DNA of 11,640 bases from assembly GCA_027051265.1 (NCBI GenBank), contig JALTZH010000173.1:1-11640 (forward strand). The letters run 5' to 3'. The notes under the pieces were generated by a model. The model was not told where the DNA came from, searched no databases, and saw only the letters and a list, made by a program, of their open reading frames with translations. This stretch comes from an archaeon (GTDB lineage Archaea; Hydrothermarchaeota; Hydrothermarchaeia; JALTZZ01; JALUTC01). The translations under genes were made by a program, and so were the position numbers. The first letter of the stretch is position 1; each line of letters opens with the position of its first letter. Below are positions 1,030 through 3,273 of this stretch, in pieces.

Positions 1030-1137
1030 GAAAGTAGAGTTAAGGCCTCCATGTAAGTGATTAAATGCAAACTGAAAAATAAACTGATGAATTAACGAAA
1101 GCTATGGTATATAAAATTAATTTCAACAGAACAAAAT

Positions 1138-1145
1138 TATATATG
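1138..1145 (+). promoter_or_regulatory. TATA box candidate for the ATPase/Toprim operon
   Basis: TTATATAT lies 55-62 bp before the ATPase ATG. With archaeal spacing (start site about 25 bp downstream) it would give a leader of about 30 nt carrying the SD site at 1188-1192. A second TATA-like TTTATAAAA (1162-1170) would start transcription too close to the SD and is less likely. Confidence 0.45.
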
Positions 1146-1187
1146 TGTACTGTTAATATTTCTTTATAAAAAATAAGATAAAAATTT

Positions 1188-1192
1188 GGAGG
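1188..1192 (+). promoter_or_regulatory. Strong Shine-Dalgarno site of the ATPase gene
   Basis: GGAGG lies 7 nt before the ATG at 1200-1202. It is the clearest SD in the window. Most other first genes here look leaderless, so this gene uses a different initiation mode from its neighbours. Confidence 0.75.
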
Positions 1193-1199
1193 AAATGTT

Positions 1200-2570
1200 A
1201 TGTTCGAGTTCAAAATTCGTGAATTTTATATAAAAAACTTTAAGAGTTTAAAAGATATCACCTTAAAACTTAACAATTTTAACGTAATCGTTGGTCGTAA
1301 TGCTTCCGGAAAAACAAATATTGTTGAAGCTTTTAAACTATTCAGAGATGTTTATCACTATCGTTATGACATTCCATTCTTTAACCCTTTCTATGAATGG
1401 GGTGGATATCAAAACGTTGTTTGGCAAGGAAATGAAGAACTACCAATACAATTGGGGTTCAGAACATATATTGAAGATTATGATGTATATTATGAAAAAT
1501 ACATAACTGGTTATGGTGGTAGGTTTGAAATTTTAAAGGAAAGATTATTCGTGAAAGGTTATGTTGATATAACAATCGAAGGAAATAAACTCATTATCAT
1601 GCATGATTCAAAATTCATTGAAAAAATTTGGAACAAAATTAAGAGTTTATCTAAAAGTATTTTCTCCATGCGTTATTTGAAAGAAGCTTTATCGGAAAAA
1701 GAATCCATAACGTTTCAGGAATATGAACTACTTGAACGTAGATTGGGAATTATGAGTGGGTGGTCTGCTACGTATACTAATGATTCATCAACGGCAGTAA
1801 TTCTTTTACATATTCCTGTTAAAAATGAAAGATTTCCAATAATAATTTCTCCAACAATTAAGATTAAGAGAAAAATTCAGCTTCGTTTACCTAGAAGAAT
1901 AGAGCTTAAGGAAGAAATCAGACATGTACCTCTCGTAACATATATTTTTTCATCGGAATTCATTTCGCAATCACAAATTTTAATATTAAGGCAATTGAAT
2001 TACAAAGCAATAACTACACCGCAACCTGTTAGAAGGGAGCTAATATTGAAAGAAGACGGTAGTAACTTGGCAAATGTTCTCTTAACATTATATTCTGATA
2101 GGGGAATCCCTGAGCGAATAGTTCGAGTAATAAATTCCATATTTGGTAACGTTGAAATAAAACCTAAGATAACGGATGATGGAAGAGTATACATTGAAAT
2201 CTTGGAAAATGGACTCAAATTACAGCCGAAAATGGTTTCAGATGGTTTTTGGAAACTATTAACAATTTTAACAGCAATAGAATTAAATCCACACATAATC
2301 GTAATTGACGAGTTAGAAAATTCATTGCATCCAGAGGCTATTGAATATGTAGTGGATGAACTAAAGAATTCGAAAAGCATTGTAATTGTAACAACACACT
2401 CACCAGCGGTTGTTGATATAATAGATCCAAAAGATTTAATATTGCTTGAAAAGGATGTAGAAGGAAAAACAATAGTCAAGAGGATTGAAAATCCTGAGAA
2501 AATAAAGAAATGGTTATCGGAAAACGGTATTACGTTGAGTGAAGGATGGTTATATGGTGATATCTTCTAA
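1200..2570 (+). CDS. AAA15/AAA21-type ABC ATPase, probable ATPase subunit of a two-gene defence system
   Basis: The 456-residue protein has the RecF/SMC-like ABC ATPase layout in one chain. The N-terminus IREFYIKNFKSLKDITLKL precedes Walker A GRNASGKTN (32-40). A variable middle insert (about 60-260) contains aromatic-rich and basic segments. An ABC signature-like VSDGFWKLL (346-354), Walker B IIVIDELE (366-373) with LHPEA after it, and an H-loop TTHSP (398-402) follow. The C-terminal WLSENGITLSEGWLYG is typical of the COG4637/COG1106 predicted ATPases. This family includes the ATPase parts of OLD nucleases, RloA/AbiLi and PARIS AriA. There is no nuclease domain in the chain itself; the next gene, overlapping its end, supplies a Toprim-like protein. 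I infer that they form a complex in which the ATPase senses or clamps and the Toprim partner acts. The start is set by a strong SD. Direct phage-defence function is inference. Confidence 0.88.
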   Translation: MFEFKIREFYIKNFKSLKDITLKLNNFNVIVGRNASGKTNIVEAFKLFRDVYHYRYDIPFFNPFYEWGGYQNVVWQGNEELPIQLGFRTYIEDYDVYYEKYITGYGGRFEILKERLFVKGYVDITIEGNKLIIMHDSKFIEKIWNKIKSLSKSIFSMRYLKEALSEKESITFQEYELLERRLGIMSGWSATYTNDSSTAVILLHIPVKNERFPIIISPTIKIKRKIQLRLPRRIELKEEIRHVPLVTYIFSSEFISQSQILILRQLNYKAITTPQPVRRELILKEDGSNLANVLLTLYSDRGIPERIVRVINSIFGNVEIKPKITDDGRVYIEILENGLKLQPKMVSDGFWKLLTILTAIELNPHIIVIDELENSLHPEAIEYVVDELKNSKSIVIVTTHSPAVVDIIDPKDLILLEKDVEGKTIVKRIENPEKIKKWLSENGITLSEGWLYGDIF

Positions 2571-3078
2571 AAGAATTTTAATACTAACTGAAGATACGTA
2601 TGGTATCGATTTTTTTCGTAAATTGATTAATAGATTAAAATCTCAAAGATTTATAAAAATTAATTATAGCTTTAAATATAGGAGATATCCAGGCGTTTGC
2701 AATTCAAAACTTTGTAGAATATTAAAATCCATTGGTAATAATTTGGTTAAAATTATTATAGTAGCAGATGCAGATGGAATGAATAAAAACCACGTCAAAA
2801 GTATGATTGAAAAACATATTCCTAATGAATTTAAAAATATAACAAAATATATAATTTTTAATCATTGCATTGAGGAGTGGATTTGTGAAGGATTGGGAGT
2901 TACTAAATGTTTTTCACATAATCCTGTACATATTCTAAATAATTATCTCAGACAAAATAAAGGAAGAGAATACGAAAAGTATATGTTACCTTCCTTTGCT
3001 GATAAATTAGACTTAAAAAAATTGCTGAACAATCAAGAGTTTAAATACTTTTTAAATTGTATAAATTGTAAATGTTAA
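2554..3078 (+). CDS. Toprim-like protein (RloB/DUF4276-like), partner of the upstream ATPase
   Basis: The protein has 174 residues from the ATG at 2554, which overlaps the ATPase gene by 17 bp and follows AAGGATGG. A GTG at 2539 would add five residues and is less likely. The pattern matches a Toprim fold: a first strand RILILTED with an acidic residue (E13), a helix GIDFFRKLI, then KIIIVADADG with a DxD pair (D72, D74). Next come FNHCIEEWICEGLG (E107, E108), like the conserved IExW motif of RloB/DUF4276 proteins, and a Lys-rich DKLDLKKLL. Toprim proteins of this kind cut nucleic acid using Mg2+ bound by these acids. In AbiL, PARIS and related systems a Toprim gene lies next to an AAA15-type ATPase as here. 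Four cysteines in the C-terminal half, three of them in the last six residues (CINCKC), are unusual and might bind metal. Family assignment is moderate. Confidence 0.68.
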   Translation: MVISSKRILILTEDTYGIDFFRKLINRLKSQRFIKINYSFKYRRYPGVCNSKLCRILKSIGNNLVKIIIVADADGMNKNHVKSMIEKHIPNEFKNITKYIIFNHCIEEWICEGLGVTKCFSHNPVHILNNYLRQNKGREYEKYMLPSFADKLDLKKLLNNQEFKYFLNCINCKC

Positions 3079-3150
3079 TAAAGTAAATTAAACTTTAAAA
3101 ACGTTAGATAATTCGTTTTTATTCTTTTATCATAGTTTCCATCAAGAATT

Positions 3151-3178: not shown

Positions 3179-3250
3179 ATTATGCAACAAGGTAGAAGTA
3201 AACAAGATCTACAGGATTGGGAAACAATTTAGATCCTAGAGGTTCTAAGC

Positions 3251-3265
3251 TATACTTGTAGTATT
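3251..3265 (+). repeat. Direct repeat TATACTTGTAGTATT, right copy
   Basis: This is the exact partner of 1015-1029. It runs directly into the TATA-like TTAAATATA of the next gene, so it may belong to the promoter. The part GTAGTATTAAATAT (3258-3271) occurs again, exact over 14 bases, at 8799-8812 in another promoter region. Confidence 0.6.
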
Positions 3266-3273
3266 AAATATAG
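3264..3273 (+). promoter_or_regulatory. TATA-like box of the aminotransferase gene
   Basis: TTAAATATAG is centred about 25 bp before the ATG at 3293, the spacing expected for a leaderless or nearly leaderless archaeal transcript. AAGG at about 3279-3282 is only a weak SD candidate. Confidence 0.4.

Follow-up and report, generated by a model that had tools for sequence, protein, structure and literature searches.

A two-gene ATPase–Toprim pair of archaea: a probable immune module of the split OLD type, with a swapped central ATPase cassette in a related lineage

A stretch of 11,640 nucleotides from an archaeon of the Hydrothermarchaeota (hereafter the window) carries on its forward strand two overlapping genes, here called A and B, for an ABC-type ATPase and a small protein with Toprim motifs. 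A preliminary description, made from the sequence alone, regarded this pair as a defence or toxin-like cassette of a divergent type, akin to AbiL or PARIS. This raises the question of whether the two genes form a unit, to which of the known ATPase-Toprim systems they are closest and what the pair does in the cell.

Gene A (1200..2570, 456 aa) was assigned by profile matches to the ABC-type ATPases of the AAA_21/AAA_15 kind with an OLD/AriA/PtuA-like head (Pfam AAA_21, E = 1.6e-24; AAA_15, 2.8e-19). All four motifs that had been claimed for it are present: Walker A GRNASGKT (1293..1316; G32, N34, G37 and K38 invariant) and, read from sequence and alignment, the ABC signature VSDGFWK (SDG; 2235..2255), Walker B IIVIDELEN (2295..2321) and the H-loop TTHSP (2391..2405). 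As known ABC head profiles (Rad50, PtuA, OLD) cover mainly residues ~1–50 and ~245–410 of A, the middle of the protein is left largely unexplained. In alignments, this central region (1542..1994, boundaries approximate) corresponds to a stretch that is an exchangeable hypervariable cassette in related lineages. Its place in the fold was taken from profile coverage only, as the two-sequence structural model of A was poor (pLDDT 43). In the profile phrog_3940, one segment aligns with the C-terminal part of A and a later one with B, as a fused ATPase-Toprim relative would give.

Gene B (2554..3078) starts with an ATG at 2554, overlaps A by 17 bp and encodes, judged by sequence, model and conservation, a stand-alone small Toprim protein of 174 aa; length and overlap agree with the preliminary description. 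The ED, DADG and IEEW motifs, previously likened to those of Toprim and RloB-like proteins, could all be placed by alignment: Toprim motif 1 (E13, D14) at 2587..2604, the DxD motif DADG (D72, D74) at 2767..2778 and IEEW with E107 at 2869..2880, followed by a YxK motif (Y140, K142) at 2971..2982. Across 35 homologues no substitution is seen at D72, E107, Y140 or K142, while E13, D14, P124, L145 and F163 are conserved in at least 90%, so that these motifs are not due to chance; position 74 is D or E in most homologues, with exceptions. The cysteine-rich tail, which had been thought to set the protein apart, is absent from nearly all relatives and is therefore no family trait. The catalytic set of OLD comprises E, E/D, D, D, T/S and E plus K or R (PMC7049728). 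Of this set, B has candidate counterparts of E, D, D, E and K, with K142 being a candidate equivalent of OLD K562, while no position in B could be matched to OLD E404 (second metal-B acidic residue).

An AlphaFold model of B, for which the window protein and a single relative were used, reached a pLDDT of 82 and a pTM of 0.80. Its order of strands and helices (beta-alpha-beta-alpha-beta-alpha-beta) is that of Toprim, and the acidic residues follow strand 1 (E13), strand 3 (DxD motif) and strand 4 (E107). Among the families listed by VIA-align, the top structural match was PH0156 from Pyrococcus horikoshii (2p62; Z 10.2, 160 residues, 4.0 Å) and the second was the OLD C-terminal region (Z 7.8). 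The lower rows, spanning Z 5.5–6.7, included further OLD structures (6.5–6.7), GajA (6.1), T7 primase and topoisomerase I; as rows with Z under 8 may be common folds and most values for B are middling, the structural likeness to OLD and GajA would be insufficient on its own. A Foldseek search with the model gave no match below E = 0.001. The assignment of B as a Toprim protein rests on the VIA-align comparison together with topology and conservation, and by its predicted structure B is indeed the Toprim protein that had been proposed. PH0156 itself is a structural-genomics protein without assigned function, and the match suggests a small Toprim protein here as well. At the profile level, window B alone matched no Pfam or NCBIfam model and gave marginal matches to two PADLOC models, mad4 (E = 0.0037) and AbiLii (0.02), while among the 35 B proteins values of 2.2e-8 were obtained for RloB, 1.5e-8 for mad4, 6.1e-5 for DUF4276 and 0.0018 for DUF3226.

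The putative promoter and ribosome-binding site of the pair were read from the sequence at 1137..1192 on the plus strand. The strong Shine-Dalgarno sequence noted earlier is real (GGAGG, 1188–1192, upstream of A), and TATA-like candidates exist as well; the one at ~1163–1172 fits poorly, as it would place the start site at or after the Shine-Dalgarno sequence, which makes 1137–1144 the better promoter candidate. As to the claimed terminator, a search found no hairpin; a T-rich tract read from the sequence at approximately 3116..3128 (plus strand) is a possible archaeal terminator. Of the IS605 element described earlier, no more than a piece is seen, a TnpB-like C-terminal fragment (156–377) close to where the contig begins, with a zinc-finger motif and the sequence HRDVVGALNIA. 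Also beside the pair, on the minus strand (492–887), a 131-aa coiled-coil-like protein with a hydrophobic C-terminal tail is encoded, for which no family scored above its cut-off. Downstream lie a DegT aminotransferase gene (E = 7e-116) and, after it, genes read as rnhB, argS and lysS. In the window, the neighbouring genes are thus metabolic or serve tRNA charging, and no defence island surrounds the pair there.

The flanking stretches, described before as structured and non-coding, turned out to be degenerate copies (975–1034, upstream of A; 3206–3268, upstream of the DegT gene) of a dispersed element of ~112 bp, which consists of a CRISPR leader with the hairpin GTTCCCGATCCTCAGGGTCGGGAA and a single CRISPR repeat. 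This element occurs ~20 times in the window's own genome (e.g., C128:12342-12453), often just upstream of an ORF; its leader part was not found in the congener G001 or in G002, and an Rfam search of the window gave no match. The same genome contains a CRISPR array near a contig end (C128:12434-14213, L146; 27 repeats of the 28-nt unit GTTTAAGCTATACTAGTAGTATTGAAAG with ~40-nt spacers) and further CRISPR repeats on contigs C84, C121 and C27. As the element is dispersed and often lies just upstream of genes, the idea that the repeat-like flanks are ends of a mobile cassette or a CreTA-like RNA was dropped, and no role of the element in the A-B pair is claimed.

Whether A and B belong together can be answered from their neighbourhood across archaea. 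At each of the 53 B loci that could be tested (a count that leaves out one case at a contig end), A is the gene immediately before B and has the same orientation; this holds for 5/5 loci in the window's phylum, and the two genes mostly overlap or lie within ~35 bp of each other; the adjacency of homologues on which the preliminary description depended is thus borne out. Since an independent search for A in the window's phylum also returned exactly the five full-length B loci, the pair is regarded as a unit, and it consists of two separate genes in every complete copy. It extends over at least three phyla of archaea, and about 50 homologues of A were identified. In the window's phylum 4/23 genomes contain it (omitting a 33-residue B fragment match in G002), and so do about 16 of the 61 genomes of genus g18, which, from its gene content, is probably Thermococcus. 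B was found in 20/115 genomes of the phylum of G088 and in 35/398 genomes of the Thermoproteota, the phylum of a Desulfurococcales archaeon, where several copies are decayed by stops or fragmentation. One genome of the window's phylum, G017, holds two diverged pairs (G017:C21 and G017:C26; L009 and L012), with B proteins 45% and 33% identical to window B and a shorter central region in L012. No copies of the pair were found in IMG/VR viral contigs or in the plasmid and phage collections searched, and spread by viruses or plasmids was therefore rejected.

Regarding known systems, the database models nearest to A are, by profile score, defence models, which we count in favour of defence. HEC-01A is its best PADLOC match (E = 2.6e-37), followed by mad3 (1.6e-30), AbiLi (3.1e-27) and, ranking below these three, AriA (7.7e-25). 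HEC-01 (Hma-embedded candidate 01; HEC-01A + HEC-01B) is likewise two-component, yet its HEC-01B models matched only up to 15 of the 35 B relatives, and weakly (best 1.1e-6), and did not match window B at E ≤ 0.1; papers on the HEC-01 mechanism were not found in the literature searched. AbiL combines the ATPase AbiLi with the small Toprim/RloB-like AbiLii, but the match of window B to AbiLii was just E = 0.02 and that of the best relative 5.2e-6, so that the kinship claimed earlier is at most distant. Judged by these profiles, HEC-01 and AbiL appear to be the nearest catalogued entries, albeit distant ones. PARIS (AriA/AriB, class 4 OLD) resembles the pair in being split into an ABC ATPase sensor and a Toprim effector; in that system, recognition of phage proteins by AriA sets free AriB, a Toprim protein that cuts tRNA (PMC12409363, PMC11455837). 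Nevertheless, membership of PARIS itself is rejected, as no DUF4435 (AriB type) match was obtained among the 35 B proteins at E ≤ 0.1 and PARIS-type class 4 OLD has been described as restricted to bacteria (PMC12796447). B instead belongs to another Toprim family, on the RloB/DUF4276/AbiLii side.

Like the OLD family (P2 OLD, TsOLD, GajA), the pair combines an ABC ATPase with a Toprim domain whose conserved residues are E, DxD, E plus one that is basic. Of the features that define the OLD superfamily, the ABC ATPase motifs as well as the Toprim fold and residues were found, whereas the single chain of classes 1–3 and 5 was not: OLD and GajA carry both domains in one chain, and their partner genes are different or lacking, while A-B is split into two genes. 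Gabija was rejected, as no UvrD-like helicase GajB follows and the next gene is the DegT aminotransferase. MADS, too, pairs an ATPase (MAD3) with a small partner of the same kind (MAD4), as reflected in the mad3 and mad4 matches given above, but A scores far below the NCBIfam MAD3 cut-off (108 vs 420 bits) and the DegT gene stands downstream in place of a MADS operon, so that MADS was rejected as well.

In our reading, to which we assign a probability of roughly two in three, A and B form a two-gene module for archaeal immunity, of the split OLD type, in which A serves as sensor and gatekeeper and B as metal-dependent nuclease effector. This division of roles is our leading hypothesis and is modelled on PARIS. 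According to it, A would hold B inactive until the central cassette, which is inserted into the ATPase head and separates its two halves, serves to recognise a trigger of viral or other foreign origin. An ATP-dependent rearrangement would then release or activate B. The target of B might be host tRNA, following PARIS, or DNA, following OLD and Gabija; its cleavage would stop the infection and probably cost the cell its life. That the cassette senses the trigger, that A inhibits B, what B cuts and that the pair defends the cell are all inferred. The defence reading is built on three observations, i.e., the patchy and base-precise presence of the pair, its decay, and the exchange of the cassette independently of both the catalytic ends of A and B. 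Such behaviour, as far as sequences tell, is unlike that of a housekeeping enzyme or a plain antitoxin and like that of a recognition element under changing invaders. The divergent defence cassette proposed in the preliminary description accordingly stands as a conserved ATPase-Toprim unit, on comparative evidence most likely one of defence, without its PARIS membership. The strongest of this evidence, the precise empty sites and the swapped cassette, lies outside the window sequence. Against the immune reading weigh the missing copies in the phage, viral and plasmid collections searched, the lack of a defence island in the window and the absence of cassette exchange between L008 and L009.

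In genus g18 the pair sits between pth2 and truD wherever both sides were checked, and in genomes of this genus that lack it pth2 usually abuts truD directly. TGAG is common to both junctions of the pair at this site. Comparing the junctions of one genome with the pair (L069/L018, GTGTGA-GCGG...GATTGAGATGGATC) with an empty site (L074, GTGTGAGAGATGGATC) shows that the pair is present or absent to the base, although truD is near-identical in the two genomes (branches just 0.016 long for L069 and 0.007 for L074). On a truD tree of 30 genomes its presence changes at least 6 times, 5 of the changes being forced by well-supported branches. A second empty site is found in the window's phylum, where glyS abuts a zinc-ribbon gene in G013 and the pair lies between them in G007 and G017; the comparison covers these two sites, with the window's own site lying outside it. 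The pattern suggests that the pair is exchanged through homologous recombination in the flanking genes.

Precise gain and loss are also compatible with addiction modules. A might simply neutralise the nuclease B, and the pair would then be kept through post-segregational killing or because it stabilises its locus, with no virus being sensed. The overlapping genes, the small nuclease-like protein, the clean gain and loss and the decayed copies would all fit, and PARIS itself has been termed a toxin-antitoxin system (PMC11455837). However, an antitoxin interface should co-vary with its toxin, and addiction does not predict a cassette that is exchanged independently of the flanks of A and of B; moreover, copies were absent from the plasmid collection searched. 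We therefore consider an addiction module unlikely.

The central cassette emerged from an alignment of 16 ATPases from the G088 lineage, the majority of which come from the pth2-truD site. In windows of 25 residues, mean pairwise identity is 84–92% up to residue ~100 and mostly 70–92% from residue ~276 onwards, but falls to 10–21% in the centre (residues 126–250). This variable centre spans ~120–150 residues and occurs in four unrelated types. Types and flanks are unlinked: on the flank tree, 9 changes of type are required (mean of shuffled labels, 8.7), and flank identity averages 84.5% for pairs of the same type and likewise for pairs of different types. Identity of the flanks correlates with that of B (rho 0.86), while the values for flank and centre (0.14) and for centre and B (0.11) are low. 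B shows no comparable stretch, the minimum pairwise window identity being 44%. At the DNA level, L011/L015, L021/L023 and L022/L027 are ~80–95% identical in the flanks and 31–50% in the centre, after which identity rises again; for the ATPases of L011 and L015, which differ in type, a flank identity of 94% was obtained. As several of the genomes compared consist of one or two contigs, this pattern is no binning artefact.

One could argue that the centre of A merely evolves fast under weak constraint and that the pair is an ordinary HEC-01/AbiL-like member. Segments inserted between the lobes of ABC ATPases often show little conservation, and L008 and L009, close relatives of the window pair, diverge only gradually, with no cassette exchange seen between them. 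Yet the centres fall into discrete types that are ~35–60% identical within and mostly without BLAST similarity between types. Furthermore, at 4-fold sites the centres are at background level (18–31% identical) next to flanks at 49–80% in L011/L015, L021/L023 and L022/L027, or at 58–80% in the closest different-type pairs (L021/L023, L022/L025, L022/L027). Conversely, L011 and L017 are identical at all 34 compared 4-fold sites of the centre, while their flanks differ at 20–36% of such sites (64–80% identity). Fast evolution under weak constraint thus appears clearly improbable, and these sequence comparisons argue that the central cassette is swapped in the g18 (probable Thermococcus) lineage. 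A similar pattern in L042/L043 (flanks 87–100%, centre 20–70%) suggests cassette exchange also in one Thermoproteota pair. The cassette of L017 (G173) resembles that of L011 but lacks ~48 residues (ATPase residues ~200–250) and is possibly decaying. Window A is closest to the alpha centre type (E = 1.7e-7). A Pfam search with the central cassettes gave nothing above chance, and published reports of cassette exchange in OLD-type ATPases were not found in an incomplete coverage of the literature. From its pattern of exchange, the swapped cassette is probably the trigger sensor.

Finally, a housekeeping role in DNA processing or the cell cycle, for which the archaeal OLD-type ATPase-nuclease Cran1 (class 5 OLD, Sulfolobales) sets a precedent, being without antiviral effect in tests, is the least probable explanation and very doubtful, as Cran1 is fused, essential, located beside a membrane-protein gene and vertically inherited with a tree following the Sulfolobales species tree (PMC12796447), whereas A-B is split and patchy, hence not Cran1, and is missing from most genomes, repeatedly gained and lost at fixed sites, often broken and subject to cassette swaps.

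A more far-reaching view may be taken, towards which we lean neither for nor against: a small set of unrelated, ancient cassettes would recombine between near-identical ATPase ends at a fixed locus while the Toprim effector stays constant, with specificity being swapped as in the recognition domains of type I restriction systems, and the pair would represent a widespread innate-immune module of archaea. Innate immunity is poorly characterised in archaea, and the A-B pair spans at least three of their phyla. If the cassette is the trigger sensor, sequence comparison alone would mark the invader-recognising part of an OLD-type ATPase, and this role would be directly testable with near-identical ATPases that carry different cassettes and come from culturable archaea.
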